The notes beneath the pieces were generated by a model. That model searched no databases, was not told where the DNA came from, and worked only from the letters and a program-made list of their open reading frames with translations. Below, in pieces: positions 21,760 through 40,036 of a DNA stretch of 64,000 nt. How positions within the stretch are numbered: the stretch's first letter is position 1; each line of letters opens with the position of its first letter. Where the stretch lies: assembly GCA_019634795.1 (NCBI GenBank), contig JAHCAR010000001.1, positions 124,001 to 188,000 on the forward strand, written 5' to 3'. The position numbers and the translations under genes were made by a program. The DNA is from Dokdonella sp. GTDB lineage: Bacteria > Pseudomonadota > Gammaproteobacteria > Xanthomonadales > Rhodanobacteraceae.

Positions 21760-24168
21760 ATGGGTGAGCGGTTCAAAATCGCGATCGTCGGATCCGGGCC
21801 GGGGGGACTGTCGGCGGCGGCACGCGCGGCTGAACGTAACGAGTCCCACGTGTTGCTCGAAGCCGAGCCGCATCTGTCGAATACCATCTATCTGTACCAG
21901 AAGGGCAAGTACGTCATGGACGAGCCCGGCATCCTGCCGTTGCGCTCTCCGATACCGTTTGCCGCGGGCCTGCGCGAAACGATTCTCGAAGGCTGGGACG
22001 AGGCAGCGGCCCGCCTCAAGATCAACGTGCGTTACCAGCATGAGGTTTCCGCGATCAAACGCCGCGATGACGGCATCTTCGACATCAAGTGCAAGAACGG
22101 AAACTCGGTAGAAGCCGAAGCCGTCGTTCTCGGCATCGGCCTGCAGGGCAACCTGCGCAAGCTCGGGGTGCCGGGCGAAGACCTGCCGTTCGTGCAATAC
22201 CAGCTCGACGATCCGGATGCCTACGAGGGCGAAACCATCGTCGTCGTCGGCGCCGGTGACGCGGCCATCGAGAACGCGGTGGCCCTGGCCAAGCAGAACA
22301 ACGTCGTCATCATCAATCGCAAGGACGAATTCGGGCGCGCCAAGAAGGGCAACGAACAGGCCATCCTGAAGGCCATCGACGACGGCCTGATCGAGTGCTA
22401 CTACAACTCGTCGCCGGAGAAGGTCGAAGCCCTCAGTGCCGGTCGCAAGCCCGGCCGCATGATCCTCAACACGGCCAATGGTCGCGCCCAGATCCTGCTC
22501 GACCGCGTCATCGCACGACTCGGCGCGACCGCGCCGCGCGGCTTCGTCGAAGCCTGCGGGGTGGTCTTCCCGAACAAGGATCCGGCCTCGGTTCCGGCCA
22601 TCAGTGCCCAGTACGAGTCCAACGTCAAGCGCCTCTACATCGTCGGCGCCCTCGGTGGCTACCCGCTGATCAAGCAGGCCATGAACCAGGGCTACGAGGT
22701 CATCGAGTACATCACCGGCAACGCGGTCGAGCCGGCCGATGCACCGCTGCTGAAGGCCAAGTTCGCCAACCTCAAGGGCATCGGCAGCGTCGACCAGGCA
22801 CTCGCCCAGATCCAGAAGAACGTGCCGGTGCTCTCCCACATCACGCCGCTGCAGATGCGTGAATTCATGCTCGATTCGGATATCCGCACGCCGGCTGCCG
22901 GCGAAGTGATCTTCACGCGCAACGACTACACGAACAGCTTCTATTCGATCGTCGAGGGCGAGGTGCGCATCGAAGTCGAAGGCAAGCCGCAGCCTGTCGT
23001 GCTGCGGCGCGGGGAGTTCTTCGGCGAGATGAGCCTGATATCCGGGCGCCGGCGCTCGGCCACCGTCACTGCGGGTCCGAACTGCATCCTCGTCGAGACG
23101 CCGCGTCGTTCGATGAATCGCCTGATCAATTCGGTCGAGGCGGTCAAGGCCGATATCGATCGCGTCTTCATCATGCGTGCGATCCAGTCGCGCTTCGCCT
23201 CCGAGGCCAGCACCGAACAGCTCGCGGAAATGGCCGCCAACGCCACGTTGCAGCGCTTCAAGGCCGGCGACTACGTATTCCAGGAGGGCGACGAGGGCGA
23301 CTGCCTGCACCTCGTGCGCATCGGCTCGCTGACCATCTCGCGCAACATCGGCGGCAAGGACATCGTCCTTACCTATGTCGCCGCCGGCAACTATGTCGGC
23401 GAGATGGCCCTGATGGGCGAATCGAAACGTTCGGCCAGCGCACGGGCGGCCATTGCGACCGAAACGATCCGGCTCGACGGCGCGGTCTTCAAGAAGCTGA
23501 TCAGCCGCATTCCCGCTCTGAGGTTGCGCCTGCAGAAGGAATTCAAGGAACGTACGGCGGCCAATCTCGCCATGCAGTCCCTGCCCGGCGGCGGCGACAT
23601 CATCTCGTTCCTGATGGCCCAGGGCGCCGGCGAAGCGACCGACATCCTGCTCATCGACGAGTCGCTCTGCGTGCGCTGCGACAACTGCGAGAAGGCCTGC
23701 GCGGAAACCCACAGCGGCACGTCGAGACTGGACCGTGAGGCCGGGCCGACCTTCGCCAATGTGCACGTGCCGACCTCGTGCCGGCACTGCGAACACCCGC
23801 ATTGCATGAAGGACTGTCCTCCCGATGCGTTGCGACGCGCCCCGAACGGCGAGGTTTTCATCGCCGACAACTGCATCGGTTGCGGAAACTGCGAGCGCAA
23901 CTGTCCGTACGGCGTGATCCACATGGCCAGCAAGCCGCCGAAAAAACCGGGGCTGCTGCAATGGTTGCTGCTCGGACGCGGGCCGGGTCCCGGCGAGGCA
24001 CCCTACGACCCCAACGCCAAGAAGGATCCGACGGCCAAGAAGGCGGTCAAGTGCGACATGTGCAAGGACCAGCCCGGTGGCGCCGCCTGCGTGCGTGCCT
24101 GTCCGACCGGCGCGGCCATCCGCATCAGTCCCGAGGAGTTCCCTGCCTATGCGCAGTCGAGACGCTGA
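21760..24168 (+). CDS. FAD/NAD(P) oxidoreductase - two cNMP-binding domains - four-cluster ferredoxin fusion
   Basis: An 802-residue three-part protein. Residues 1-345 form a two-dinucleotide-fold flavoprotein (IVGSGPGG near residue 10, VVVGAGDAAIE near 163) without a thioredoxin-reductase CxxC, so it resembles ferredoxin:NADP reductase-like enzymes. Residues ~365-480 and ~495-605 are two cyclic-nucleotide-binding folds (GEFFGEMSLISGRRRSATV; GNYVGEMALMGESKRSASA). Residues ~635-790 carry 16 cysteines in four [4Fe-4S] motifs of DmsB/NrfC type (CVRCDNCEKAC, CRHCEHPHCMKDC, CIGCGNCERNC, then CDMC and CVRAC). GGAGG precedes the ATG. It is predicted to pass electrons from NAD(P)H to the membrane cytochrome encoded next, gated by cAMP or cGMP; the gating is inference. 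Confidence 0.85.
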   Translation: MGERFKIAIVGSGPGGLSAAARAAERNESHVLLEAEPHLSNTIYLYQKGKYVMDEPGILPLRSPIPFAAGLRETILEGWDEAAARLKINVRYQHEVSAIKRRDDGIFDIKCKNGNSVEAEAVVLGIGLQGNLRKLGVPGEDLPFVQYQLDDPDAYEGETIVVVGAGDAAIENAVALAKQNNVVIINRKDEFGRAKKGNEQAILKAIDDGLIECYYNSSPEKVEALSAGRKPGRMILNTANGRAQILLDRVIARLGATAPRGFVEACGVVFPNKDPASVPAISAQYESNVKRLYIVGALGGYPLIKQAMNQGYEVIEYITGNAVEPADAPLLKAKFANLKGIGSVDQALAQIQKNVPVLSHITPLQMREFMLDSDIRTPAAGEVIFTRNDYTNSFYSIVEGEVRIEVEGKPQPVVLRRGEFFGEMSLISGRRRSATVTAGPNCILVETPRRSMNRLINSVEAVKADIDRVFIMRAIQSRFASEASTEQLAEMAANATLQRFKAGDYVFQEGDEGDCLHLVRIGSLTISRNIGGKDIVLTYVAAGNYVGEMALMGESKRSASARAAIATETIRLDGAVFKKLISRIPALRLRLQKEFKERTAANLAMQSLPGGGDIISFLMAQGAGEATDILLIDESLCVRCDNCEKACAETHSGTSRLDREAGPTFANVHVPTSCRHCEHPHCMKDCPPDALRRAPNGEVFIADNCIGCGNCERNCPYGVIHMASKPPKKPGLLQWLLLGRGPGPGEAPYDPNAKKDPTAKKAVKCDMCKDQPGGAACVRACPTGAAIRISPEEFPAYAQSRR

Positions 24169-24292
24169 GCCGCTGCCTGCGGACGCCGCGCCCGGCGCGT
24201 GCGCGAGGCACCATGACGCATCGTCGCCCGATGATCGCTGGCAGCAGCCAGTGGTCACCGGCTGCCGCGAAAAGCAGGTCTAGGAGCGCCGC

Positions 24293-25198
24293 GTGCACGA
24301 CTCCATCCTGACCCACGCCAAGTCTCGCTATCTCTGGATTTCGATCGGCCTGAGCGTGGTATCCATTGCCCTGTACCTCTGGCACGATCCGGGGGTCGCA
24401 CCAAATGGCGGCACCTGGCTCGGCTATACGCTCGGCACCATCGCCGCCCTGATCATCGTCCTGCTGCTGCTGTTCGGCATCCGCAAGCGCAGCTACTCGA
24501 CCACGCTCGGCAGCACCCGTGGCTGGCTGTCCGCGCACATTTACCTCGGCACGACGCTGATCCTGCTGGTTCTTTTGCATTGCGGGTTCCAGTTCGGCTG
24601 GAACCTGCACACCTTTGCCCTGGTCCTCATGCTGATCGTCATCTTCAGCGGCTTCTTCGGCGTTTACGCCTACCTGCGCTACCCGACCCTGATGACCCGC
24701 AACCGGGAAAGCGCGACCCGCGACGCGATGCTCGAGGAAATCCAGGAGATCGACCAGAACGCGCTGGCCCTGGCCGACGGCATCGCTCCGGAAATCCATG
24801 CGGTGGTCCTGCGCTCGATCGAAAACACCAAGCTGGGCGGTGGCGTCTGGACACAGTTGCGCGCCCGCGACGGCTCCGACATTGCGATTGCGCGCATCCG
24901 TGCCGCGATCGAAAAGCGCGAAACCCAGCTCGGCGCGGCGCCGGCACCGATGCAGGCCGGGCAAACCATCATCGCGATGGTCGACTTCCTCGCCGGCCGC
25001 GCCGACGACAAGCAATCCGAAGCGCTGCGCAAGCTCATCGACATCCTCTCGCGCAAGCGCAGCCTGGCGACCCGCGTGGCGCGCGACATCCAGTACCAGG
25101 CGATCATGGAGATCTGGCTCTACTTCCATGTGCCGCTGTCGATTGCGCTGTTGGCCGCGCTGATCGGCCACATCATTTCCGTATTCTTCTACTGGTAG
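24293..25198 (+). CDS. Predicted diheme cytochrome b-type membrane protein
   Basis: A 301-residue protein with about five membrane helices (roughly 15-30, 45-63, 82-100, 106-127, 275-300) and a ~140-residue cytosolic helical loop before the last helix. His82/His96 in one helix (AHIYLGTTLILLVLLH) and His279/His293 in the last (HVPLSIALLAALIGH) are both spaced by 14, the pattern of bis-His heme b in ferric-reductase and NarI-like proteins. It would bridge the cytosolic flavo-FeS protein and the periplasmic hemes of the next gene. GTG start with TAGGAG upstream. No family is assigned with certainty. Confidence 0.72.
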   Translation: MHDSILTHAKSRYLWISIGLSVVSIALYLWHDPGVAPNGGTWLGYTLGTIAALIIVLLLLFGIRKRSYSTTLGSTRGWLSAHIYLGTTLILLVLLHCGFQFGWNLHTFALVLMLIVIFSGFFGVYAYLRYPTLMTRNRESATRDAMLEEIQEIDQNALALADGIAPEIHAVVLRSIENTKLGGGVWTQLRARDGSDIAIARIRAAIEKRETQLGAAPAPMQAGQTIIAMVDFLAGRADDKQSEALRKLIDILSRKRSLATRVARDIQYQAIMEIWLYFHVPLSIALLAALIGHIISVFFYW

Positions 25199-25256
25199 GT
25201 AACGGCTCGACCATGCCCTCTTCTGCACCTGACATGAGACCCGGGAGGCCGATCCG

Positions 25257-26936
25257 ATGCGTTGGCTGATCCGCCGTGTCCTGAAGAAGGGCAAGTCCTC
25301 GATCTCCTACGAGGACGATACCCACTACGGCGAGATCCTGACCATCGGGCGCGCCTCCGACCAGGCGATCTTCCTGCCCGACCTGCGCGCCGCGCTCAAC
25401 CATGCCAGCGTTACCGCGATCGGCAATGGCAAATATCGCGTCGAATCGCTGATCATCGCCGGTATTCGCGTCAACGGCGAAATCACCTACTCGATTACCG
25501 TCGGTGCCGGTGCCGTCATCGAACTCGGCTCGACCCGCCTGACTCTGCTCGACGCCCGCGGCGACTACGACGCCGCGGTCGAGGTGTCCTCGATCGACAA
25601 GAGCGAGCAGGCGGCGATGCTCTCGAAGCGCAAGAAGCCGACCAGCCTCTCGGAGACCTGGATCAGCAAGCGCTGGCCGTCCTGGCTCGGCTTCATCGTG
25701 GTCCTCACGCTCGGCCTGCTGCTGCCGGCAGCGACCCACGTGGTGCCGGGCCTGAATACGGTGCTGCGCTATTCGCCATTGCCGAGCACGGCATTCTGGA
25801 ATCCCGGTGAAATCGATGCCGCACACCAGTTCTTCGCGACCGATTGCACGCGTTGCCACCAGCACGCATTCCTGATGGTCCGCGATACCGCCTGCACCTC
25901 GTGCCACGTCAAGACCAAGGCCCATGCCGATCCGGCCAAGTTCAACATCCCGGCCCTGGGCGACGCCCGCTGCGGGACCTGCCATCAGGACCACAACGGC
26001 CAGCGCGGCATGATCAGCAAGGACCAGCGCCTGTGTGCGGACTGCCATGCCGACCTCAAGGATCGCACCAAGGGTGCGAGCCAGATTGCCGACATCGCCG
26101 ATTTCGGCGACGCGCATCCGCAGTTCCACGTCAACCTGCCGGGCTGGACTGCGGCCGGCGAATTCATGCCCAAGTCGATGCCCTGGGCGAGCGGGCTCAA
26201 GGAAAATTCCGGGCTCAAGTTCAACCATGAGAAGCACCTCAAGACCGATGGCCTGAACACGCCGAACGGACGCAAGGTGCTGACCTGCGAAAACTGCCAC
26301 CAGACCGACGCCGCCGGGGCCGCGATGAAGCCCATCGCCTTCGAAACGATGTGCCACGAATGCCACCAGCTCGGATTCGACACCCTGGCGCCGGATCGCG
26401 AAGTGCCGCATGCGAATGTCGAGGCGGTTACCTATACCCTCGACGAGTTCTACGCCCGGCGCGGCCTCGAAGGCGGCTATGCCGATGCGCGCGCGCCGAC
26501 CATCGTCCAGGAACGCCGCCGCCCCGGATCGCCGCCGCTGTCCCGGCAGGAACAGGTCGAGGCGCTGGCCTGGGCGCGCGATCGTGCCCGCGAGGCGGCG
26601 CGCACGCTGTTTACCGGCAAGGCCTGCGTCACCTGTCACTCGATCAGTCCGCCGGCGGCCGGCGAGAGCACCTGGCGGGTCGCGCCGGTGCGCGTTTCGG
26701 GAATCTGGTACGTCGATGCCAACTTCGTGCACGCCAAGCACGCAACCAAGGCTTGCGTGGATTGCCACGAAGGTGCGTTGACCTCGCAGGCATCCAACGA
26801 CCTGCTCATACCGGGCATCGACAATTGTCGCGAGTGCCACGGCGGTGCCCACGCGAGCGGAAAGGTCGCCAGCACCTGCATCGCATGCCATGCCTATCAC
26901 CGGTCGCCCCTGCTCACGCTGGACAAGCAGCAATAG
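25257..26936 (+). CDS. FHA-like domain - membrane helix - decaheme c-type cytochrome fusion
   Basis: A 559-residue protein. Residues ~22-100 resemble an FHA phosphothreonine-binding domain (EILTIGRASDQAIFLPDLRA, then NHASV). One helix at about 142-162 (WLGFIVVLTLGLLLPAATHV) anchors it with the N terminus in the cytoplasm. Residues 197-545 hold ten CxxCH motifs: CTRCH, CTSCH, CGTCH, CADCH, CENCH, CHECH, CVTCH, CVDCH, CRECH, CIACH. It should carry electrons across the periplasm while the FHA part listens to a cytoplasmic phosphoprotein. There is no cleavable signal; the helix serves as anchor. GGGAGG precedes the ATG. Confidence 0.82.
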   Translation: MRWLIRRVLKKGKSSISYEDDTHYGEILTIGRASDQAIFLPDLRAALNHASVTAIGNGKYRVESLIIAGIRVNGEITYSITVGAGAVIELGSTRLTLLDARGDYDAAVEVSSIDKSEQAAMLSKRKKPTSLSETWISKRWPSWLGFIVVLTLGLLLPAATHVVPGLNTVLRYSPLPSTAFWNPGEIDAAHQFFATDCTRCHQHAFLMVRDTACTSCHVKTKAHADPAKFNIPALGDARCGTCHQDHNGQRGMISKDQRLCADCHADLKDRTKGASQIADIADFGDAHPQFHVNLPGWTAAGEFMPKSMPWASGLKENSGLKFNHEKHLKTDGLNTPNGRKVLTCENCHQTDAAGAAMKPIAFETMCHECHQLGFDTLAPDREVPHANVEAVTYTLDEFYARRGLEGGYADARAPTIVQERRRPGSPPLSRQEQVEALAWARDRAREAARTLFTGKACVTCHSISPPAAGESTWRVAPVRVSGIWYVDANFVHAKHATKACVDCHEGALTSQASNDLLIPGIDNCRECHGGAHASGKVASTCIACHAYHRSPLLTLDKQQ

Positions 26937-27011
26937 GCGCAAATCGCTCGTCTGAGCTATGATCGGCTCAGGGTTCCGCATGCAGGCTCGCAGCAGGCAA
27001 CGGGAGGAGGG

Positions 27012-29039
27012 ATGGGGATCATCAGATTCAGCACGCTGCTCATCGGCGTATCGATGCTGTTCGCCTGTGGCGGGGGCAGCAATACCGGCAGCGACCTGGG
27101 CTCGAATCCGGGTACGCCAGCCGGCAACGGGGATTCCGGCTGCGCCGGCTCCTGCGCAAACGCGAGTTCGTTCCTCACCGTCGAGGACATCCAGAAGATC
27201 ATCGCCCAGGCCGTTAACGAGGCCCAGGCCCAGGGCATGCCGGCGACGATCACGGTCATCGACCGAGTAGGCAACGTGCTGGCCGCCTATCGCATGACCG
27301 GCGCGCCGCGCACGCAGCGTGTCGACTCCGGACGCGGTGTCGTCGGCGGCCTCGAGGGACTCTCGATTCCGAGCGAACTGACCGCGATCGCCAAGGCCAT
27401 CACCTCGGTCTATTTCTCCTCGGAAGGCAATGCCTTTGCGTCACGCACGGCCGGCCAGCTGGCCCAGGAGCATTTTGCGCCGGGCGACATCACGGCTCCC
27501 TCCGGCCCTCTGTTTGGCGTGCAGTTCTCGCAGCTGCCCTGCTCCGACATCAGCCGACGCTTCAACGGAGTCGGACCGGACGCCGGACCGCATCGCTCAC
27601 CGATCGGAATCGCCGCCGATCCCGGTGGCCTGCCCCTGTACAAGGCCGGGGTGCCGGTCGGCGCGATCGGCGTCTCGGCGGATGACACCTATGGCGTCGA
27701 TACCAATTCCGGCGATATCGACCGCAATTTCGATGAAATCATCGCGGTCGCCGGCACCTTCGGATTTGCTGCGCCGCAAGATCGCCGCGCCGATCGCATT
27801 TCGGCCGGCGGCCTGACCTTGCGTTACGCCGACATCGACTTCAACGGGCTGGCCAGCGATCCGGCGGGCGCACCGGCGTTCAGTACGCTGGGTGCGAGTT
27901 CGGGCGAAGTGTTCGAGATACCGGGATTCTTCAGCGGCACGATCGCGCGCGGACTCGCCTTCGGCCAGGTCGAATCGGGCATTCGGCCGGATCCGGTCAA
28001 TTTCCCGGGTCTCGATGCGTTCGTCGTCGACGACGGCACCGGTACCAACCGTTTCCCACCGATCGACGGAACCGATGGCCCGAATGCGCTGACTTCCAAC
28101 GAGGTGCTGACCCTGTTGCAGGAGGGTCTCAAGGTCGCCAACCGGACCCGCGCCCAGGTACGTCGCCCATTCGGCTCGCCAGCCGGCGAGACGGTCGTGG
28201 TGGTCGACACCAATGGCGTCGTCCTCGGCATCGTGCGCTCGCGCGACGCTCTGCTCGATGCGGTCGACGTGACCACGCAGAAGGCGCGCACAGCTGCATT
28301 CTTCTCCGGCGCCTATGCCGCCGCCGATATCGCCTCGGTCGCGCAGCAGCCGCTCGGCTTTCTCTCGAACACGGTCGATCTGGCCAATGGCCGCGTCGCC
28401 TTCACGACGACCGGCGCGATCGACCCGACCAGCTATGTCCCGGCCCTTCAGGCTTTCCTGCCCCAGCCCGGCGCGCTGACCGACGGTTCGATCGCGTTCT
28501 CGAATCGCGCCATCGCCAATCTTTCCCGGCCCTACTATCCGGATGGCGTCCCCGGTCGCCCACCCGGCCCGCTGAGCCTGCCGATCAGCAACTGGAGCGT
28601 CTTCAACACCGGACTCGAACTCGACCTCGACTATTCGCAGACGGCCTTGTTCGTGGCCTCCTACCTGCAAGCCATCGGCCTCACGGTCAGCCTCGACGGC
28701 ACCGACCTGCCGCCGATCGGCGAGGCGCCGACCAATTGCACGGGCATCTCGCGCATTCCGAACGGCATCACCCTGTTCGGCGGCAGTGTGCCGATCTACC
28801 GCGGCTCGACCCTGGTCGGCGCGATCGGTTCCTCCGGTGACGGCACCGACCAGAGTGACCTGGTCGCGTTTCTCGGCTTGCACAATGCCGGCGTCGTTCT
28901 GAACGGAGCGATCGGCAATGCGCCACCATCGATGCGGGCCGACAATTTCGTTCCGCAAGGCGCACGCTTGCTGTACGTGCAATGCCCGCAGGCGCCATTC
29001 CTGAATTCCACCGAACAGTACGTATGCGAGGGCAAGTGA
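27012..29039 (+). CDS. Lipoprotein with two GlcG/HbpS-like domains
   Basis: A 675-residue lipoprotein: lipobox MLFAC puts the lipidated Cys at residue 19, followed by a Gly/Ser linker. A first GlcG/HbpS-type domain begins LTVEDIQKIIAQAVNEAQAQ, then TITVIDRVGNVLAAYRM. A second begins LTSNEVLTLLQEGLKVANRT, then ETVVVVDTNGVVLGIVR, with a long insertion. Each copy has a PLY/PIY...VGAIG segment near its end. HbpS relatives bind heme and sense redox stress; a role in handling heme or docking the cytochromes is plausible but unproven. It is one base upstream of the barrel gene, clearly an operon. Confidence 0.75.
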   Translation: MGIIRFSTLLIGVSMLFACGGGSNTGSDLGSNPGTPAGNGDSGCAGSCANASSFLTVEDIQKIIAQAVNEAQAQGMPATITVIDRVGNVLAAYRMTGAPRTQRVDSGRGVVGGLEGLSIPSELTAIAKAITSVYFSSEGNAFASRTAGQLAQEHFAPGDITAPSGPLFGVQFSQLPCSDISRRFNGVGPDAGPHRSPIGIAADPGGLPLYKAGVPVGAIGVSADDTYGVDTNSGDIDRNFDEIIAVAGTFGFAAPQDRRADRISAGGLTLRYADIDFNGLASDPAGAPAFSTLGASSGEVFEIPGFFSGTIARGLAFGQVESGIRPDPVNFPGLDAFVVDDGTGTNRFPPIDGTDGPNALTSNEVLTLLQEGLKVANRTRAQVRRPFGSPAGETVVVVDTNGVVLGIVRSRDALLDAVDVTTQKARTAAFFSGAYAAADIASVAQQPLGFLSNTVDLANGRVAFTTTGAIDPTSYVPALQAFLPQPGALTDGSIAFSNRAIANLSRPYYPDGVPGRPPGPLSLPISNWSVFNTGLELDLDYSQTALFVASYLQAIGLTVSLDGTDLPPIGEAPTNCTGISRIPNGITLFGGSVPIYRGSTLVGAIGSSGDGTDQSDLVAFLGLHNAGVVLNGAIGNAPPSMRADNFVPQGARLLYVQCPQAPFLNSTEQYVCEGK

Positions 29040-29040
29040 C

Positions 29041-30864
29041 ATGCGTATCGGAAATCTCCGCCGCACTGTCCTGACTGTCGCCCTGACTGCGGCGTCGACC
29101 ATGGGCACAACGGCCGCGCAGGCCCAGGGCAGCACCCTGCCGACCAGTTGGCTGCAATTGATCGGTCTGCTGCCGGCACCGACCTATGATCCCTATGCAT
29201 CGCAGATTCCGCGCCGCCGCCCCGGCCATCCGCCGGAACCGCTGCCGATGTTCGTCGAACAGAATCCCGATGCGCTGAATCCCGCGCCGGTCGACCAGGT
29301 TGGCAGCTTCGTGCCGGTGCCGGACCGTTGGCGCATCATGGAATCGCTGGGTCTGAACACGCCCTGGTACGACCCGTACAACCAGAACGTGCTCAAGGGC
29401 GACAAGCCGATCATCGGCGAGGACTGGTTCTTCTCCTTCACCGGCATTTCCGACACCCTGCTCGAACCGCGCGGCATCCCGACCCCGGTCGGTCCGCAGT
29501 CCGGCCCCGAGCCCGGTTCCAACGACGTGCTCGGCGATACCGACCAGATCATCCTCGCCCAGACCGCGATCACGAGCTTCCTGCTGTACAAGGGCGATAC
29601 CGCTTTCAAGCCACCCGATTACGAATTCCGCGCGACCCTGGCCTTCAACTACAACCGCGTGCGCACGCAGGAAGTGCGCGCCCTGAACGTCGATCCGACC
29701 TTCGGCAAGTCGCGCGACGACGGCTTCATCGGCGTGCAGGAACTGTTCGTCACTAAGGACTACCGGACCGCGTCGGCACGCTATGACGTCGATGAGGTAC
29801 GCATCGGCATCCAGCCGTTCTCGTCGGACTTTCGCGGCTTCCTGTTCCAGGACAACCAGCCCGGCATCCGCTTCTTCGGCAATCGCGACAACAACCGCTG
29901 GCAATACAACATCGCCTGGTTCCGGCGCCTCGAGAAGGATCTCAACTCGGGCCTCAACGACGTCACCAAGGGGCCGCGCAAGGACGACATCTTCCTCTTC
30001 AATCTGTACCGGCAGGATTTCCCGGTGGTCGGTTTCGTCTCGCAGGCGATCTTCGCCTACAACCGCAACCGCGAGGATTCGAGCTTCTACGATTCGAACG
30101 GCTTCATCCAGCGCCCGGCCGCGATCGGTCGCGAGTTCCCGCGCACCTACGACGTCGGCTATTTCGGCTATAACGGCGATGGCCACTTCGGTCGGCTCAA
30201 CCTCACTGTGGCCGCCTATGCCGCGGTCGGCAAGCAGAAGCCCGGCGTGTTCGTCGCCGAGGATACCGACATCCGTGCCGGCTTCCTCGCCGCCGAAGCC
30301 TCGATGGATTTCGACTGGATTCGCGTGCGCGGTTCGCTGGCCTATGCCAGCGGCGACAAGGATCCGTACGACGACCGTTCGACCGGCTACGATGCGATTT
30401 TCGAGAACCCGATCTTCGCCGGTGCCGACACCAGCTACTGGATTCGCCAGAACCTGCCGCTGATCGGTGGCGGTGGCGTCGCCCTGGCCGGGCGCAATGG
30501 CCTGCTCGCCAACCTGCAGTCGTCCAAGGAACAGGGCCAGTCCAACTTCGACAATCCCGGAATCCAGTTGATTGGCGTCGGTGCCGACTTCGACCTGACC
30601 CCACAATCGCGGGTCTCGGCCAATATCAACCATCTCTGGTTCTCCGAGACCGAGGTGCTCAAGGTCGCGCGCGCCACGGCCGACGTCGGCCGCAACATCG
30701 GCACCGACCTTTCGGTGTCGTGGATCTGGCGTCCCTACTTCACGCAGAACGTCATCCTGCGCCTGTCCGCGGCCACGCTGCTGCCGGGCCAGGGCCTGAA
30801 AGACCTTTACGGCGAAGATACCAAGTACTACTCGGTACTTGGCAATTTTGTTCTCACATTCTGA
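29041..30864 (+). CDS. Outer-membrane beta-barrel protein (putative porin of a porin-cytochrome complex)
   Basis: A 607-residue protein with a signal peptide (ends near AAQAQG, residue 29), no CxxCH, alternating amphipathic strands with many aromatic residues, and a C-terminal YYSVLGNFVLTF whose terminal Phe is the BAM insertion signal. Segments such as YEFRATLAFNYNRVRTQEVR and IQLIGVGADFDLTPQSRV are strand-like. Sitting between two decaheme genes, it is the likely sheath that lets a multiheme cytochrome cross the outer membrane. Alternatively it is a general porin. The next gene starts 17 bp downstream. Confidence 0.75.
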   Translation: MRIGNLRRTVLTVALTAASTMGTTAAQAQGSTLPTSWLQLIGLLPAPTYDPYASQIPRRRPGHPPEPLPMFVEQNPDALNPAPVDQVGSFVPVPDRWRIMESLGLNTPWYDPYNQNVLKGDKPIIGEDWFFSFTGISDTLLEPRGIPTPVGPQSGPEPGSNDVLGDTDQIILAQTAITSFLLYKGDTAFKPPDYEFRATLAFNYNRVRTQEVRALNVDPTFGKSRDDGFIGVQELFVTKDYRTASARYDVDEVRIGIQPFSSDFRGFLFQDNQPGIRFFGNRDNNRWQYNIAWFRRLEKDLNSGLNDVTKGPRKDDIFLFNLYRQDFPVVGFVSQAIFAYNRNREDSSFYDSNGFIQRPAAIGREFPRTYDVGYFGYNGDGHFGRLNLTVAAYAAVGKQKPGVFVAEDTDIRAGFLAAEASMDFDWIRVRGSLAYASGDKDPYDDRSTGYDAIFENPIFAGADTSYWIRQNLPLIGGGGVALAGRNGLLANLQSSKEQGQSNFDNPGIQLIGVGADFDLTPQSRVSANINHLWFSETEVLKVARATADVGRNIGTDLSVSWIWRPYFTQNVILRLSAATLLPGQGLKDLYGEDTKYYSVLGNFVLTF

Positions 30865-30880
30865 GGGGGCGCGCAGGACA

Positions 30881-33800
30881 ATGAAGCGATCCATCGCTGC
30901 CATCTGTATTGCCATCGTCCTGCCGTTCGCAGGATCCGTGCTGGCTTCCGGCGGAGGCGCCGAACGCGTCGAGCGCGAATACGTCACCGCGCCGAACGCC
31001 CCGGCCTTCCAGACCTGGGAGCAGGCCGATGAAAAATCGCGCGGCTGCATCAGCTGCCACACCGCCAGCGATCGCAAGACCATGCACGCCAGCCCGGCCG
31101 TCGTTCTCGGCTGTACCGATTGCCATGGAGGTGATGCCAGCGTCAGCGTGGCGTCCGACCAGCATGAAGGCGTCGAATACCATGATGCCGCCGAGAGGGC
31201 GCACGTCCTGCCGCGCTACCCTTCGCGCTGGGAGCACAGTGCCAATCCCGAACGCAGCTATACCTGGCTGCTGCAGGAATCGCCTGAGTTCGTGCGCTTC
31301 ATCAATCCGGGTGACCTGCGTGTAGCCCGCGAGGCCTGCGGCGCCTGCCACCTGCCGCTGATCCAGGCCAATGAAAAGAGCCTGATGGCCAATGCCGCGA
31401 TGTTCTGGGGCGCGGCCGCGTACAACAATGGCATCCTGCCGTTCAAGCATTCGATCCTCGGCGAGGCCTATGGTCGCGATGGCGAAGCCATCACGATGGA
31501 CAACGGCATCCCGAACGACGAGACCATGGACCGCCACGGGGTGTTGCCGAAGATCAGCCCGATGCCGGCCTGGGAGACGGTGCCGCCCGGCGACGTGTTC
31601 CGCATCTTCGAACGCGGTGGACGCAACATCAACAACATCTTCGCCGAGCTCGGCCTGCCGAACGAGTTCGGCCAGATCCAGCGCCTCGAGGAACCCGGTC
31701 GGCCCGACATCCGGCAGTCCTTCCGCGGTCCCGGCACTGCGCTTCGCGTGTCGATCCCGGTCCTGAACATCCACAAGACCCGACTCAACGACCCGTTCAT
31801 CTGGATGCTCGGCACCAATGACAACCCGGGCGACTTCCGCTCCTCCGGCTGCAGCGCCTGCCATGTGATCTACGCGAATGATCGCGACCCACGCCATTCG
31901 GCGATCTACGCAAAATTCGGCAACATGGGCATGAGCCAGCAGGCCGATCCGACCATCCCGAAGGACGAGCCGGGGCATCCGCTCAAGCACGAATTCACGC
32001 GTCAGATTCCGACCAGCCAATGCATGATCTGCCACATGCATCAGCCGAACATGTTCATCAACACGATGCTCGGCTACACGATGTGGGACTACGAGTCGGA
32101 TGCGCCGTTCATGTGGCCGGAAAAGCAGCAATATCCCGACGCGGAGAAGATGCGCAAGATCCTCGACCGCAATCCCGAGGAAGCGTCGATTCGCGGCAAA
32201 TGGGGCGACCTCGACTTCCTCAAGGACGTTTCCCTGCTCAATCCGCAGCTCAAGGACACCCAGTTCGCCGACTACCACGGCCATGGCTGGAACTTCCGCG
32301 CGATCTACAAGCGCGACCGCAAGGGCAACCTGCTCGACAAGGTCGGCACGAAGATTGCCGACGACGATCCCGACAAGTGGAAGAAGGGCGTTCACCTGTC
32401 CTCGATCCATGTCGATGTCGGCATGCAGTGCGTCGATTGCCACTTCGCCCAGGACGCCCACGGCAATGGCTACCTGAAGGCCGAGGTGATGGGCGCGGTC
32501 GAGATCCAGTGCCAGGACTGCCATGGCACGGCCGACGCCCTGCCGACCCTGAAGACTTCGGGCCCGGCCGCCTCCAAGTTCGGCAAGGACCTGCTGCTGA
32601 TCCGCAATCCCGACGGCAAGAAGCGCTTCGAGTGGGTCGGCGACGAGCTGATCCAGCGCTCCGCCGTGACCCCGGATCTCGAATGGAAGATGACCCTGGT
32701 CAAGAACACCGCGGATCCGCTCTCGGGCGCTTACAACCCCAAGGCGACGCGCGCGCACACCATGGCCATGGGCACCGACGAGCTCAAGTGGGGCACCGAC
32801 GTTCCGGCCGACCAGCGCGCCCATGGCGAAGACAAGATGCTCTGCTATGCCTGCCACACCTCGTGGACGACGAGCTGCGGCGGCTGCCACCTGCCGATCC
32901 AGGCCAACTGGAAGACCGAGCGTCACAAGTACGAGGGCGGCTTCACGCGCAACTTCGCGACCTACAACCCCCAGGTCGCGCGCGACCAGATGTTCTTCCT
33001 CGGCAAGCACGGCAGCATCAAGGGCGGCAAGATCGCGCCGGTGCGCTCGTCCTCGGCCCTGGTCCTTTCTTCGACCAACATCAACCGCGAAAAGATCTAC
33101 GTCCAGCAACCTCCCGTTTCGGCCTCGGGTTACAGCTCGCAGGCATTCGCTCCGCACTACCCGCACACCGAGCGCAAGACCGAAACCAAGGATTGCGAGG
33201 ACTGCCATCTGTCGAGCAAGAACGACAACAACGCGATCATGGCCCAGCTCCTGCTGCTCGGCACCAAGTTCGTCGATTTCATCGGCTATCACGCCTGGGT
33301 CGGTGGCGATGGCGAGGTCGCCGCGGTCCGGGTCACCGAGTGGGACGAGCCGCAAGCCGTGATCGGTAGCTACCTGCATCGCTACGCCTATCCGGACTGG
33401 TACGCCGATCACCAGAAGAACAAGCAGGAATTGCAGAAGGCCTTCGAACATTCCGCCGGTGTTGCCAATTGCCTGCAGTTGCGCGGCGAGTACCTGTACG
33501 TGGCCGAAGGCAGCAAGGGCACCCAGGTCTATGACGTCGCCAGCATCGGCAACAAGGGCTTCTCGCAGAAGTTCGTGACCGCTCCGGCCTCGCCGCTCGG
33601 CCAGGACACTGCGATCAAGTCAAAGGACGCGACCTGCATTGCCCTCGCCACGACCCAGCCGGTCGCACCCGAACGCAACACCGGCGACCTGATGCGCAAG
33701 GACAACCAGGAACAGCCGATGCATCCGGTCTACAAGTACGCATTCATCACGGATGCGCAGGAAGGCCTGATCGCGACCGACATCGAAACCCTGGCCGACC

Positions 33801-34672
33801 GCGAGCCGCGCAACAATTTCCTGACCCGGGCGATGACCTGGAACGAGAATGGCGTGCTCAACGGGGCGCATCACCTGTATATCGCAGGCACCACGTTCTA
33901 CGTCGCCACCGATGCCGGCATCGTCGTCCTCGACATGGACGATCCATTGCAGCCGCGCTACCTGACCACGGTGCCGATCGCCGGAGCGCGCGCCAGCCAG
34001 GTGCAGTTCCGCTACCTGTTCGTCACCGCGCCGGACGGCCTGCACGTGGTCGACGTGACCCTGCCCGAGAAGGCGCACGAAGTTGCAGGCGCGATGCTGC
34101 CGCTGAGCGACGCGCACAAGCTGCACATCGCGCGCACCTTTGCCTACATCGCCAATGGTGCGGAAGGCCTGGCCATCGTCGACGTGACCAATCCCGAGCA
34201 TCCGAGCCTCTACCGCATGTTCAATGCCGATGGCGCAATCAATGATGCACGCGATGTCGTCGTCGCCACGACCAATGCGTCCCTGTTCGCCTACATCGCG
34301 GATGGAAAGAACGGACTCAAGGTGGTGCAGCTGACTTCGCCCGAGCTTCAACCGAAGTTCTACGGATTCGCGCCTGACCCGAATCCGCAGCTGATCTCCT
34401 GGTATCCGACGAAGAAGCCTGCGCTCTCGCTGTCGCGCGGCCTCGAGCGCGACCGAGCCGTCGACGAAACCGGGCATCAGATTGCGGTGTTCGGTCGAAT
34501 CGGCTCGCGGCCATTCAACCTCGAGGAGATGCGTCGCCTGTTCCTGCGTGCCGACGGCACGCCGTGGTACGTCAGCAACGATCCGGACGACCACAGTACC
34601 CAGGCCGCCGATGCGAAGGACGCGACTCGTGCCGGTTCAGGCGCGACGTCGTCGCCGGCCTCGATGCACTGA
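30881..34672 (+). CDS. Secreted decaheme cytochrome c with LVIVD-type C-terminal repeats
   Basis: A 1,263-residue protein with a Sec signal peptide (IAIVLPFAGSVLASG) and ten CxxCH motifs in the first ~800 residues: CISCH, CTDCH, CGACH, CSACH, CMICH, CVDCH, CQDCH, CYACH, CGGCH, CEDCH. The rest (~855-1180) has repeats such as GIVVLDMDDPLQPRYLTTV, LHVVDVTLPE, GLAIVDVTNPEHPSLYRMF and GLKVVQLTSPELQP, typical of LVIVD beta-propeller-like surface proteins. It may be the outer electron donor or acceptor, with the propeller binding a surface partner or mineral. AGGA supports ATG 30881. No lipobox is seen, so it may be held by the barrel protein. Confidence 0.85.
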   Translation: MKRSIAAICIAIVLPFAGSVLASGGGAERVEREYVTAPNAPAFQTWEQADEKSRGCISCHTASDRKTMHASPAVVLGCTDCHGGDASVSVASDQHEGVEYHDAAERAHVLPRYPSRWEHSANPERSYTWLLQESPEFVRFINPGDLRVAREACGACHLPLIQANEKSLMANAAMFWGAAAYNNGILPFKHSILGEAYGRDGEAITMDNGIPNDETMDRHGVLPKISPMPAWETVPPGDVFRIFERGGRNINNIFAELGLPNEFGQIQRLEEPGRPDIRQSFRGPGTALRVSIPVLNIHKTRLNDPFIWMLGTNDNPGDFRSSGCSACHVIYANDRDPRHSAIYAKFGNMGMSQQADPTIPKDEPGHPLKHEFTRQIPTSQCMICHMHQPNMFINTMLGYTMWDYESDAPFMWPEKQQYPDAEKMRKILDRNPEEASIRGKWGDLDFLKDVSLLNPQLKDTQFADYHGHGWNFRAIYKRDRKGNLLDKVGTKIADDDPDKWKKGVHLSSIHVDVGMQCVDCHFAQDAHGNGYLKAEVMGAVEIQCQDCHGTADALPTLKTSGPAASKFGKDLLLIRNPDGKKRFEWVGDELIQRSAVTPDLEWKMTLVKNTADPLSGAYNPKATRAHTMAMGTDELKWGTDVPADQRAHGEDKMLCYACHTSWTTSCGGCHLPIQANWKTERHKYEGGFTRNFATYNPQVARDQMFFLGKHGSIKGGKIAPVRSSSALVLSSTNINREKIYVQQPPVSASGYSSQAFAPHYPHTERKTETKDCEDCHLSSKNDNNAIMAQLLLLGTKFVDFIGYHAWVGGDGEVAAVRVTEWDEPQAVIGSYLHRYAYPDWYADHQKNKQELQKAFEHSAGVANCLQLRGEYLYVAEGSKGTQVYDVASIGNKGFSQKFVTAPASPLGQDTAIKSKDATCIALATTQPVAPERNTGDLMRKDNQEQPMHPVYKYAFITDAQEGLIATDIETLADREPRNNFLTRAMTWNENGVLNGAHHLYIAGTTFYVATDAGIVVLDMDDPLQPRYLTTVPIAGARASQVQFRYLFVTAPDGLHVVDVTLPEKAHEVAGAMLPLSDAHKLHIARTFAYIANGAEGLAIVDVTNPEHPSLYRMFNADGAINDARDVVVATTNASLFAYIADGKNGLKVVQLTSPELQPKFYGFAPDPNPQLISWYPTKKPALSLSRGLERDRAVDETGHQIAVFGRIGSRPFNLEEMRRLFLRADGTPWYVSNDPDDHSTQAADAKDATRAGSGATSSPASMH

Positions 34673-34714
34673 TCAATGCGCGGCGCCGTCGGGCGACGGT
34701 CGCCGCGCAATTTC

Positions 34715-35197
34715 ATGGACGCAAACGCAAACCAGACCCTGCTCGACCGTTACTTCGCGGCTTTCGCTGCCCGCGATGGCGCGACAATGGGTAGCTGCTA
34801 TGCCGCTGACGCGACATTTCGCGATCCGGTCTTCGAACTCGAAGGCTCCGACATCGGCGCCATGTGGCGCATGCTCTGTGCGCGCGGCAGCGATCTGCGA
34901 ATCGCCTCTTCCAATCGGGTCGCCGATGCCGAGAGCGGAAGTGCCGACTGGGAAGCCTGGTATGCCTTTTCGGCAACCGGCCGCTCGGTCCACAACCTCG
35001 TGCACTCGCGATTCCGCTTTCGCGAAGGACGGATAGTCGAGCAAGTCGACCGGTTCGATTTCTGGCGCTGGTCGCGCCAGGCCCTCGGCATGCCGGGACT
35101 TCTGCTCGGCTGGACGCCCTTGTTGCGGAACAAGGTTCGCGCCAATGCCGGCAAGGCACTGCGCCACTTCATCGAGGCGGAAAACCGGCGCAGTTGA
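34715..35197 (+). CDS. NTF2/SnoaL-like domain protein
   Basis: A 160-residue cytosolic alpha+beta cone protein: LLDRYFAAFAARDGATMGSC, then YAADATFRDPVFEL and FRFREGRIVEQVDRFDFWRW are the hallmarks of the SnoaL/NTF2-like superfamily. These proteins are isomerases, hydrolases or small-molecule binders; no catalytic set could be named. ATG 34715 is preferred to the upstream in-frame start because the family begins there. It follows the decaheme gene by 42 bp on the same strand, so it may be the last gene of the electron-transfer operon. Confidence 0.72.
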   Translation: MDANANQTLLDRYFAAFAARDGATMGSCYAADATFRDPVFELEGSDIGAMWRMLCARGSDLRIASSNRVADAESGSADWEAWYAFSATGRSVHNLVHSRFRFREGRIVEQVDRFDFWRWSRQALGMPGLLLGWTPLLRNKVRANAGKALRHFIEAENRRS

Positions 35198-35367: not shown

Positions 35368-36858
35368 ATGTCCGCCATTCCCCACGCCCAATCCAACCAA
35401 GCCAGCATGGCACCGATGCGCTTCCTGGCGGCGCAGGCGCTCAGCCGGACGGCGGGAGCACCCCTGATAGGCGGCAACAGCGTCGAGATCCTGATCGATG
35501 CCGAGAAGAACTTTGCCGAATGGCTGGACGCGATCCGCGGGGCGACATCGAGCATCCTGTTCGAGAACTACATTTTCCGCGACGACACGGTCGCGCGCGG
35601 ATTGCGCGACGCCCTTGTCGAAAGGGCTGCGCATGGCGTGCGCGTGCATGTCGTGCGCGACTGGATGGGTTGCCTTGGCCAGTCATCACAGGCGTTCTGG
35701 AAGCCCCTGCTCGATGCCGGCGGCGAGGTCCGGACCTACAACGCTCCGCGCTTCGGTAGTCCCCTGGGCTGGCTTTCCCGCGACCACCGCAAGCTGCTCG
35801 TCGTCGATGCACGGGTCGCCTTCCTTGGCGGCATCTGCGTCAGCGCCAAGTGGCTGGGCGACCCGCAGCGCAACATTCCACCCTGGCGTGATACCGGGGT
35901 CGCCGTGCGCGGCCCGGCCGTGCGCGACCTCGCCGCTGCATTTGCGGCAACCTGGTCCGCTCTCGGTCCGGCCCTGCCGGAATCGCTCCTGGCCGGGATG
36001 GAAGGCATCGAGCCCGCCGGAAACGTCGATCTTCGCGTCGTCGCCACCGTGCCGAACGCCGCCGGGCTGTATCGGCTCGACCAGATGATCGCCGCGATGG
36101 CGGAGTGCCGCCTGTGGCTGACGGATGCCTATTTTGTCGGCGTGACGACCTACCTGCAGGCCCTCTCCTCGGCCGCGCGCGATGGCGTCGATGTGCGCCT
36201 GCTGGTGCCGGGGACCAGCGACATCCCCGCGATCGGAGGCCTCTCGCGTGCCGGCTACCGGCCGCTTCTGGAGGCCGGCGTCCGGGTCTTCGAATGGAAC
36301 GGATCGATGCTGCATGCGAAGACTGCCGTCGCCGATGGCCGCTGGGCCAGGGTCGGATCGAGCAACCTCAACCTGGCCAGCTGGATAGGCAATTGCGAGC
36401 TCGATATCGCGGTCGAGAACGAGGAATTCGCGGGCAAACTGGAGCGCCAGTACGAGCTCGATCTCGAGAATGCCACCGAGATCGTACTCGCCGAGCGAGC
36501 GCGGGTACGCCGCGAGAAGCCGCCTTCGGACGGCCGTCGACGCCACAATGGAGGCAGTACCGGTCGCGCCGCCGCCGGAGCGCTGCGCTTCGCCAACACG
36601 GTCGGCGCGGCGATCACCAATCGGCGCACGCTCGGCCCGGCCGAAACGGCCACGCTCGGTACCGGCGCCCTCGCCCTCGCAGCCGGCGGCCTGCTGGTCC
36701 TGATATGGCCTCGACTGATTGCGTGGCCGCTTGGCATCCTTGCCATCTGGTTCGCCATCGTGATGTTCCGACGCTACTGGACGGCCCGAAACAGGGACGC
36801 GGCAGCCACTCCCGAGGACGCGAATGCTCAGGACGGCACGAGCGGGGACCGGCACTAG
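35368..36858 (+). CDS. Phospholipase D-family / cardiolipin synthase-like protein
   Basis: A 496-residue enzyme with two HKD half-sites: [17 protein letters not shown] (about residue 145) and [20 protein letters not shown] (about residue 315). Both HxKxxxxD motifs are intact, so transphosphatidylation or hydrolysis is expected, most likely cardiolipin synthesis (ClsB/C-like). A C-terminal pair of hydrophobic segments ([19 protein letters not shown], then [13 protein letters not shown]) would anchor it in the inner membrane. The start may be 35368 or 35407. Its stop overlaps the end of the convergent response-regulator gene. Confidence 0.85.
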
Positions 36859-37310
36859 TCCTTTGGCGGCAGGATGACGATGGTCAGCCAGAAGCTCTCG
36901 ATGCTGCGAACCACGTCCATGAAGTCCTCGAATCCCACCGGCTTGGTGATGAAGCAGTTCGCGTGCTGGTCGTAGGCGCTGAGCAGGTCCTTCTCGGCCC
37001 GCGAACTGGTCAATACCACCACCGGGATCTGCTTCAGCAGCGGGTCGTTCTTGATCTCGGCAAGTACCTCGCGCCCGTCGAGACGTGGCAGATTGAGATC
37101 GAGCAAGATCAGGTCGGGACGAGGAGCCTCGGCATACTCGACCTCCCTGCGCAGGAAACGCAATGCATTCTCACCGTCGTTGACGACGTGCAGGCGGTTC
37201 CTGATCCGGCCCTCCTTGAGCGCTTCGCGGGTCAGGCGCACGTCGCCTGCATTGTCCTCGACCAGCAGAATTTCGACGAGTTGGCCACTCTGTCCCATCG
37301 TTACGCTCAT
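36855..37310 (-). CDS. Single-domain response regulator (Rcp1-like)
   Basis: A 151-residue receiver domain without output: acidic pocket in [11 protein letters not shown], phospho-acceptor Asp in [10 protein letters not shown], conserved Thr/Ser in [11 protein letters not shown] and Lys in CFITKPVGF. The long insert with an Arg-rich stretch before the Asp strand is typical of Rcp1/CheY-like regulators paired with phytochrome-type kinases. Its ATG overlaps the histidine-kinase stop by four bases, so the kinase is the evident partner. Confidence 0.9.
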
Positions 37311-40036
37311 GCCTTGCTCCGGGATTTTGGAAGAACGAAATGGAAGGTGCTGCCTTTGCCGGGGACCGACTCCACCCAGATGCGGCCGCCAAAGCTGTCG
37401 ATGATCCGGCGACAGATCGCCAGACCGATTCCGGTACCCGAGTATTCGCTGCGTGTATGCAGGCGCTGGAAGATCGCGAACACGCGTTCGCAGTGCCTGG
37501 CTTCGATCCCGATGCCGTTGTCGGCGACGCGGACATGCCAGTTGGCGCCTTCGCGTCTCGCGTCGATGACCACTTCCGGAACGCCGGGGCCACGGAACTT
37601 CAGTGCATTTGCGATCAGGTTCTGGAAAACCTGGGTCAATTGTCCCGGGACCGCCAGCACGCAGCCATCGACATCGATCCGGATCACGGCTCCGGTTTCC
37701 GAAATCGATTCCTGCAGCTGCGCCACGGCTGTTTCCACGCTTGCCCTGAGCGGGGTCGCCACCGGCTTCATGCCCGAGCGACCGACCCGGGCATAGGCAA
37801 GCAGGTCCTCGATCAGGTTCTGCATGCGCGTGGCGCCGTCAACGGCAAAGCCGATGAACTCGTCGGCGTCTGCATCGAGCTGACCGCGGTAGCGCCTGGC
37901 CAGCAACTGGACGTAGCTGGCGACCATCCGCAACGGCTCCTGCAGGTCATGCGAGGCCACGTAGGCGAATTGTTCGAGGTCGGCGTTGGAGCGCTCCAAT
38001 TCCTGAGCGCGCCGGGTCAGCTCCAGTTTCGCGGCGAGCCGGTCGGTGATGTCGGTCACGAACGCGGTGAAATAGGTCTGGTCCTCGCTGCTCCAGGCAG
38101 ACAGTACGACCTCGATCGGAAATTCGCTGCCATCGGCGCGCAGGCCGGCCATTTCCAAGGAATTGCCAAGGGCCCGCCCCTCCCCGCCCGCGGCAACGCG
38201 CGTGATGCCGGCGCGGTGTGACTCGCGGAAGCGCTCGGGCATCAGCACTTCCAGCGACCTGCCCGTCATGGATTGCGCGTCCACACCAAACTGACTGGCC
38301 GCCGACGGATTCATGTAGAGAATGTTTCCGGCCATGTCCGCGGTGATGATGCCGGCCCTGGCCGTATCGGTGACCGCTTGCTGCGCCCGCTGCGCGCGTG
38401 CCAGTTCCCGGTTGCTGCGTCGGGCGAGATGCAGGGCGCGGGCGCGGTGCCCGGTCAGCACCCAGGTCACGGCAAACAGAACGAGGGCGGCAAACAGGCC
38501 ACCGATCAGGACGACGGAAGGATTCCTCGAGCCGACCATAATGCGCCGGTCGGGCATCAATTGGGCTGATAGCGTCCAGTTTCGCCCACCCAGGGTCCGA
38601 ACCATGGAGGAGAACGGCTTGTCGGCATCGAACCCCGACGATTGGAACAGGGGTATTCCGCTCGAAGTCTGCGCGTCGTCGACGATGCGCAAGGCAAGGC
38701 CATCGGCCGACTCGCGCTCCAGCTCGGCCACCATCTGGCGGATATCGAGCGCACTGTAGGCAAATCCGCTGACTCCGATTCGATCGGCGGCCGCGCCAGC
38801 GGGCAACGGGACCGGGTTCTCGAGGGCGAGTGCGACGACGAAGCCGGTGCGCGACTGCGGATCTCGGTACTGCGCGAATTCGACCCGTCCCGAGAGAACC
38901 GGACCCACAGAGTCCGCGGCCTGGGAAATCGCTTCGGCGAAGACCGGGACCGCCAGCAGGTTCAGGCCGAGTGCCCATCGACCGGCCTCGCCATTGGGCA
39001 CCACATAGACGGTCGGCAGCATCTGCCCGCTGGCCTCGACTGGCCAGGGCTCGATCGACGCACCAGACAGCCGTGCCCGATCCTGTCCAGCGCCGGCCGC
39101 GCCGAGCTTGTCGACCGGGGCCGCATAGCCGACCAGGAAGATGCTCTGGTCGGCGCTGAACAGCGAGAGCTGCCTGAAATAGTGCGACCATTCTTCGGGA
39201 TCGACCTGTTGCGAAGCGGCAAACAGTCCACGAACCCCTTCGAGCAAAGTGGCCGCATTCGAGACTTCGACCGATAACGCACTGTCCACGCGCTGCAGGG
39301 AATCCCTCAGCGCCGTCTCGAGTTGCTTTGTGTTCTGCGCCTGAACCTGGCGCCAGACCAGCAGGGTCGCACCCAGCGTGACCAGAAGCACGGCCAGCGC
39401 AGCCGCGAGACCGGAGCGATCGCGCAGTTCCTCACTGGCGAAGGAAGTCTCGTAGGCATCGACGAAGGGGTCACTGCGCAATCGTGCCCCGATCAACAAT
39501 CCAAGACCGGCGACCAGCAGGATCGTTGATCCCGGCAGGCGCATGCCCCCGAGCAGGGATTCGTCGAGATCGAGTGACAATCCTCCGACCATCGCAAAAA
39601 TCCCGGCCGCACCGATCATTGCAGCCACCGAGCCGAGCAATCCGAACAGCAGATGGCGGCCCCACTGCGCCGGAAACAATGCGTCCAGGACCAGCGCGCC
39701 GCCAATACAGAACATGCCCGAGGCGAAGCTCTGGGTGACGGCGAATGACAATTGACTCTGCGCCGATTCAGGACCGCGCGCGATGGTCCAGGCCAGTTGC
39801 AGTCCGCAAGCAGCGGCAATCGCCATGCCGCATACCATCGAGATCCAGCGCCCTTCCGGCCGGCTGCGCATGAACAGACCGAGGGCTGCGACCAGGGACA
39901 ACACCAGCGCGCCGCGCCGATAGTCGAGCCACTCAACGTCGACGAACCAGCCCAGGGCGAAGGCGCCGAGGGAAACGGCCGTCAGCAGGCCGACCATGGC
40001 CAGATACAGCGGGTCGGCGCTGCGGGCCACCGCCAC
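37307..40036 (-). CDS. Membrane histidine kinase with CHASE and PAS domains
   Basis: A 909-residue sensor kinase. Several N-terminal helices (residues 1-230), a periplasmic CHASE-like domain (about 265-480, including [10 protein letters not shown]), one more helix ([20 protein letters not shown]), a PAS domain (~545-665, [20 protein letters not shown]), a HisKA box with [16 protein letters not shown] (His near 695) and an ATPase with DNGIGIE and SGTGIGLAI. The GTG start abuts the stop of the upstream gene. It should phosphorylate the response regulator encoded next. The ligand is unknown. Confidence 0.88.

Follow-up and report, generated by a model that had tools for sequence, protein, structure and literature searches.

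Can electrons taken from NAD(P)H in the cytoplasm be led across the cell envelope under the direct control of a cyclic nucleotide? This question is raised by seven open reading frames on one strand, at positions 21760-35197 of a 64,000-nucleotide stretch of DNA from Dokdonella sp. (contig JAHCAR010000001.1, positions 124,001 to 188,000; hereafter, the window). Six of them, here called A-F (21760-34672), constitute one set, whilst the seventh, G, which comes after them, is a lineage-specific neighbor. From their sequences, A-F may form an NAD(P)H-fed, cyclic-nucleotide-controlled trans-envelope reductase with F as the terminal enzyme and E and D as outer-membrane partners, a reading to which we give an even chance. 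That the set is undescribed, as had been supposed in an original prediction made from the sequence alone, agrees with a literature search, which found no description of it in a coverage that left out most subscription journals. The seven genes are the following:

A, 21760-24168, + strand: flavoprotein similar to FNR and YpdA with tandem cNMP-binding domains and four [4Fe-4S] clusters, the putative electron entry (Pfam, PDB sequence matches, conservation)
B, 24293-25198, + strand, GTG start: integral membrane protein, predicted b-type cytochrome (His conservation, hydrophobic segments, charge pattern)
C, 25257-26936, + strand: FHA-like domain, one membrane helix (145-163), and decaheme part (CxxCH count, Pfam, hydrophobicity)
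D, 27012-29039, + strand: lipoprotein (LFAC|GGGSN) with three HbpS-like stretches (Pfam PF03928, lipobox)
E, 29041-30864, + strand: outer-membrane barrel of 18 long modelled strands with an AlgE/Occ-like fold (structure model)
F, 30881-34672, + strand: large decaheme cytochrome with signal peptide and C-terminal LVIVD β-propeller, the presumed terminal reductase (Pfam, CxxCH count)
G, 34676-35197, + strand: SnoaL-like protein, a lineage-specific tail of doubtful role (Pfam SnoaL_2, 1.7e-16)

From A to G, successive genes are separated by 124, 58, 75, 1, 16, and 3 bases. The CxxCH heme motif occurs ten times in C, ten times in F, and not at all in the other five proteins. Conservation was counted in 45, 84, 84, 74, 62, and 58 sequences for A-F, respectively, including the window protein and excluding homologs whose match starts after 12% or ends before 85% of the query. 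Ten motifs are present in 83 of the 84 C sequences, with nine in the remaining one, and in all 58 F sequences, and this conservation implies that the CxxCH pattern is not due to chance. Thus, the row of co-directional genes retains the residues of a cofactor chain leading from NAD(P)H to the outer-membrane region, as had been predicted.

Protein A (802 residues) consists of a flavoprotein part (1-300), tandem cNMP domains (~350-590), and a ferredoxin region with four [4Fe-4S] clusters (630-790). Pfam finds Pyr_redox, two cNMP_binding stretches (PF00027, 124.7 bits over both), and Fer4, and the sequence matches in the PDB are to ferredoxin-NADP reductase, the regulatory tandem domains of PKA and PKG, and HycB-type ferredoxins. 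The match of the flavin part to ferredoxin-NADP reductases counts in favor of the proposed NAD(P)H-fed reductase. All 16 cysteines for the iron-sulfur (Fe-S) clusters are invariant in the 45 sequences, in agreement with the predicted flavoprotein with four clusters. The phosphate-binding cassette of cNMP domains is marked by a characteristic Glu and Arg. In A, these residues are Glu423 and Arg432 in the first domain and Glu548 and Arg557 in the second; Glu548 is retained in 44 sequences and the other three in all 45. A is therefore predicted to hold two apparently intact sensors of cyclic nucleotides, e.g., of cAMP. The tandem domains of PKA and PKG and the domain of CRP resemble those of A in this cassette, which A has in both domains, and the PDB matches span both. 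However, the cNMP domains of PKA/PKG and CRP are joined to a kinase or DNA-binding domain, whereas those of A join two redox modules.

A distant trio of genes resembling A, B, and C lies at L034:9030-13353. Its A-like protein has two cNMP stretches and Fe-S clusters and no flavin match, and its C-like protein has no FHA match. This make-up suggests that the joining of cNMP domains to Fe-S clusters is older than the FHA domain.

Diheme cytochromes b carry two His pairs, ~14 residues apart, on two membrane helices. In B (301 residues), H82, H96, H106, H279, and H293 are invariant in all 84 sequences. The pairs H82/H96 and H279/H293 are each 14 apart and coincide with hydrophobic segments at 79-101 and 280-298, so that B has the predicted diheme cytochrome b signature as far as its sequence can tell. 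The pattern of positive charges puts one His of each pair near each membrane face. H82 would then share one heme with H279, and H96 would share the other with H293.

Protein C has a single hydrophobic segment with six Lys/Arg residues before it and one after it. From this asymmetry, the FHA-like domain probably faces the cytoplasm and the decaheme part the periplasm. Besides matches to c7/c3 cytochromes, Pfam reports the FHA domain at 21.0 bits (E 4.7e-4), marginally above the cut-off of 20.7. FHA domains bind phosphothreonine through the residues Gly-Arg, Ser-x-x-His, and Asn-Gly. Of these, C retains the first Gly in 84, the Arg in 83, the His in 74, the Asn in 44, and the second Gly in 71 of the 84 sequences, but the phosphate-binding Ser in only four, with Ala in 62. 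Thus, the prediction of an FHA input stands in so far as the domain is matched, barely over the cut-off, but is weakened by the marginal score and by the loss of the Ser in 80 of 84 sequences. A search of the PDB with the C profile yielded only short heme-motif and FHA pieces, and among NCBIfam models C found only a paired-CxxCH domain of 41 positions, at 17 bits against a cut-off of 25.2. In genome G031, C has lost the FHA Arg, and downstream of the set lies a gene (L033:56-1108) whose product matches FHA strongly in two stretches (E 2.9e-41).

Proteins D and E would provide the partners in the outer membrane. The lipobox pattern is present in 70 of 74 D homologs, and D contains three stretches matching the HbpS-like family PF03928 (6.4e-23). 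E ends in Tyr or Phe in all 62 sequences. Its structure model is an 18-stranded barrel, for which AlgE and Occ channels are the best structural matches among those listed. The decaheme inner-membrane protein, the lipoprotein, and the barrel of the original prediction were thus all recovered. E has no match in Pfam, nor in NCBIfam at E 0.01, where the models include TIGR03509 (MtrB/PioB-type) and the inclusion of an ExtI model is not established. Although E shares the 18-stranded fold of AlgE-type channels, the window protein does not match their family, Alginate_exp (PF13372), at E 0.1, and 6 of 42 homologs do, the best at E 0.0011.

The HbpS-like stretches of D raise the alternative of reductive iron or heme acquisition, in which ferric chelates or heme would be reduced at the outer membrane at the expense of NADPH and D would handle heme. 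A neighbor in Sphingobium TomMM15 is annotated as heme:hemopexin-binding protein, and at L061 an apparent TonB-dependent receptor, identified by eye, lies a few kb upstream; both are in line with this alternative. On the other hand, HbpS-like domains bind other ligands as well, the matches listed for E are to 18-stranded channels and not to TonB-dependent transporters, and no iron or heme uptake gene was recognized by eye among the recurrent neighbors, i.e., clusters in at least five loci. On balance, we consider a role in iron or heme acquisition improbable.

Protein F (1263 residues) starts with a signal-peptide-like segment and has no lipobox. Pfam matches are LVIVD (51.9 bits) and Cytochrome_C7 (32.6 bits, cut-off 24.8). 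In the structure model the propeller is confident, and the fold search therefore informs on the propeller only; a sequence search of the PDB with the F profile found no relative. The secreted decaheme cytochrome of the original prediction is borne out in its ten motifs and signal peptide, but its placement beyond the outer membrane is not. The NCBIfam model of ExtM (NF040943) matches F in 39 of 39 sequences, and F appears to be a distant relative of ExtM. It reaches only 15.6 bits with the DmsE/MtrA-family model (cut-off 192.2). Among B-F, F is the most conserved protein in 38 of 48 loci. Such a rank is consistent with a dedicated enzyme.

ExtM belongs to the Ext cluster of Geobacter (extHIJKLMNOPQS), which is connected with selenite and tellurite reduction. 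The two systems differ in the electron entry, which is a flavo-Fe-S protein with cNMP domains here and a Rieske/cytochrome b pair in the Ext cluster, and in the counterpart of the HbpS-like D, which is a rhodanese there. A Geobacter extI mutant is reported to be impaired in the conversion of selenite and tellurite to the elements (PMC5877670). Together with the likeness of F to ExtM, this phenotype makes an oxyanion or another specific acceptor as plausible as a mineral.

A mineral or an electrode would be the acceptor if the set were a general porin-cytochrome conduit, with F at the surface, passing through or sitting on E. The comparison with MtrCAB had been drawn in the original prediction, and there are similarities: in MtrCAB and other Pcc conduits, too, a barrel and decaheme proteins that cross the envelope are encoded together, here along with a lipoprotein, and the parts co-occur. 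Furthermore, in Sphingobium the set adjoins two-partner-secretion genes, a hint of work at the surface. Closer analysis did not bear out the comparison in this form, however. The barrel of E has 18 long modelled strands, best matched by AlgE and Occ, against 26 in MtrB, and F is large and lacks a lipobox. No model of the MtrB or MtrA families reached its cut-off, in searches that did not include one by the name MtrC, and membership of the MtrCAB family was rejected on these grounds and on that of the E model. The absence of MtrB among the structural matches listed for E carries no weight alone, and TIGR03509 had no match in the window's own genome, as it had none in the control genomes either. 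Electrons would enter here from NAD(P)H, whereas they enter the known conduits from quinol. Finally, conduits of this kind tend to have variable surface cytochromes, whilst F is the best conserved of B-F. A conduit of this general type therefore seems rather unlikely, if less so than iron or heme acquisition.

The Uet complex of Tenderiales was considered as well, being likewise a multiheme conduit with a barrel (PMC10734462). Its components are reported to be an undecaheme cytochrome, tri- and tetraheme cytochromes, a peptidylprolyl isomerase, and NHL repeats (PMC10734462); PMC5371394 is an earlier Tenderia paper. Identity with Uet, as far as described there, was rejected as the parts are different; Pfam finds no isomerase or NHL match in A-F.

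How could the proposed reductase work? The order of the cofactors suggests the path of the electrons. The flavin of cytosolic A would be reduced by NAD(P)H. Since the cNMP domains lie between the flavin and the clusters, their ligand-bound form may alter the contact between the flavin and Fe-S modules and thereby gate the transfer to the four [4Fe-4S] clusters. Electrons would then move from these clusters to the cytoplasm-side heme of B (H82/H279) and from its second heme (H96/H293) to the periplasmic decaheme part of C, while the FHA-like domain of C may dock the complex on the cytoplasmic side. From C they would reach F, either directly or via a small carrier such as a tetraheme protein found in other lineages (see below). 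F would act as a specialized decaheme reductase with a propeller, serving a specific acceptor rather than forming the end of a general wire, with E as its outer-membrane channel and D as its lipoprotein partner.

An outward flow is assumed in this proposal. FNR-like proteins can run either way, and direction is not readable from sequence. In the inward case, F would oxidize an outside donor and A would make NAD(P)H; one betaproteobacterial isolate among the records is labelled FeB_7, which says little. However, with most outside donors, energy must be supplied to form NAD(P)H, and Pfam matched no proton-pumping family among A-F. Inward flow is therefore very improbable in our view.

Relatives of C were detected at 144 places, and the best 80 were kept, giving 79 distinct loci. 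These are titled Dokdonella, Tahibacter, Rudaea, other Lysobacterales, Betaproteobacteria, and a few Alphaproteobacteria, and the set thus recurs across Gamma-, Beta-, and Alphaproteobacteria. Leaving apart contig-edge cases (14 for A-B, none for B-C, six for C-D, four for D-E, and six for E-F) and six overlapping or near-duplicate stretches (L019 and L165-L169), adjacent and non-adjacent cases numbered 52 and 4 for A-B, 86 and 2 for B-C, 58 and 26 for C-D, 72 and 3 for D-E, and 65 and 4 for E-F. Gene order is thus conserved. Many betaproteobacterial loci have the genes arranged as B-C-D-E-F-X-A, where X is a tetraheme c554-like protein. Clustering detected X in 29 of 91 loci, and a Sphingobium X as the query detected it in 38 of 99 stretches; it was rejected as a missing part of the window set, as no X was found in the window. 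G is present in 11 of the 79 loci, none of which carries a betaproteobacterial title.

Co-occurrence extends to entire genomes, which counts in favor of the proposed reductase. Of 40 relatives, 17 have C, one of them (G033) only as a distant fragment, and, within the genus, 8 of 10 genomes have it. Full F is present in 11 of the 398 genomes of a phylum sample, in some of them with the match to a single frame split into two or three pieces, and a further 11 genomes have partial matches only. All 11 genomes with full F, i.e., the window's own and ten others, contain C. Conversely, 14 of 15 C genomes contain F, with G033 (distant C, no F) not counted among them; the miss is G022, where the contig ends just after E. 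Two genomes of the same genus (G001 and G006) have neither C nor F, apart from short weak matches. A-B-C and F co-occur even when unlinked, as C and F are 1.2 Mb apart on one contig in G026 and on different contigs in G034. The set is also found on 13 plasmid records of Sphingobium or Sphingopyxis, in 12 of which F is annotated as hypothetical protein and in one as multiheme c-type cytochrome. Cultured species that carry it are Dokdonella immobilis, Tahibacter soli, and Sphingobium herbicidovorans. Four loci (L088, L096, L110, and L111) have unlikely titles (Mycobacteriaceae, Bordetella parapertussis, Chitinophaga pinensis) and betaproteobacterial-like genes, which indicate that these metagenome labels are probably wrong.

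The genes next to some sets bear on the role of the cNMP domains. Seven of the 99 stretches searched contain a gene for a calcineurin-like phosphodiesterase, which one record annotates as CpdA. In six cases, this gene immediately follows C in the same orientation, and the seventh (L151) neighbors a CHASE2 cyclase. Two of these loci are on Sphingobium plasmids and five are in families f54 and f55, which we infer to be Alphaproteobacteria too. Proteins with CHASE2 and class III cyclase domains are encoded within ~10 kb of six sets (L076, L151, L154, L166, L167, and L170). Of these, L076 and L167 are gammaproteobacterial, L167 being from a genome of the window's class, and L154 has the genes for the cyclase, for a small protein, and for X, D, E, and F all in one direction. 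Other types of cyclase occur at two more loci (L095 and L153). These counts are not independent, since several of the loci are related and extended flanks were taken for only four genomes and one plasmid, making the search uneven. Elsewhere in the window genome, there are class III cyclase matches, the best at 6.9e-18. The prediction of a cNMP-binding electron entry, already backed by the conserved ligand residues, is strengthened by these neighbors. They go beyond what had been noted before, as do the distant kinship of F with ExtM and the wide spread of the set. It is possible, though tentative, that a second messenger directly switches trans-envelope electron flow. On this reading, the messenger would act through the tandem sensor inserted between the two redox modules of A, some lineages have genes for a cyclase and a phosphodiesterase close to the set, and the chain would end in a new ExtM-like propeller reductase. 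We know of no precedent for a ligand-gated electron conduit.

Several observations weigh against the proposed cyclic-nucleotide-controlled reductase. Phosphodiesterase and cyclase neighbors are found in a minority of loci, the seven phosphodiesterases are confined to Sphingobium and families f54 and f55, and neither type of neighbor was found within the window. C is not followed by D in 26 of 84 evaluable cases. B scores 21.3 bits with cytochrome b561 (PF01292), below the cut-off of 30.1, and a search of the PDB with its profile gave no relative, only one chance row at E 0.5. The relationship of F to ExtM is remote: the window protein reaches 79.2 bits in three partial stretches, a tenth of the 800-bit equivalog cut-off, and the model matched in none of 14 control genomes. 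The heme region of F was not folded confidently (predicted local distance difference test score of 56), so that no catalytic heme was identified, and all ten heme motifs are ordinary CxxCH. The conservation of F is no proof of an enzyme, since A is conserved to a similar degree (mean identity 0.74 versus 0.71 for F in the 31 loci with both) and the loci are mutually related. Moreover, one of the 11 F genomes (G411) has a TAA within the F match.

With regard to the surroundings, the window genome has CcmH for heme attachment, and about a dozen loci adjoin apparent cytochrome c maturation genes, named by eye. Scans of the region found no sigma-70-like promoter (2.6 expected) and terminators at chance level (10 versus 8.9 expected), and a viral contig scan found none. 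In S. herbicidovorans (NZ_CP020539.1, ~786004-802399; L164/L170), a plasmid typed as conjugative carries the set beside genes for a ShlB-type secretion protein, a protein of 2092 residues with no Pfam match, a CHASE2 cyclase, and a regulator of the Crp/Fnr type. A small separate cNMP-binding protein is encoded next to X-D-E-F at L155:16178-16897 and L157:16500-17174, with C elsewhere in both genomes. Upstream in the window, a 582-residue protein (17604-19352) has no Pfam match at 1e-5, adjoins an apparent ispG, and has relatives in 30 of 91 loci. Downstream, on the opposite strand (36855-42202), there are genes for what appear to be a response regulator, a CHASE-PAS histidine kinase, and a GGDEF-EAL protein, which add up to a further second-messenger system close by.

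Comparable cytochrome chains that cross the envelope are known to take their electrons from the quinone pool and to be regulated at the level of gene expression. In contrast, NAD(P)H appears to be the electron source of the set described here, and the protein at which electrons would enter appears to contain a messenger sensor of its own. It thus offers a direct test case for whether a second messenger can gate the flow of electrons out of the cell, and it points to a candidate reductase in cultured species.

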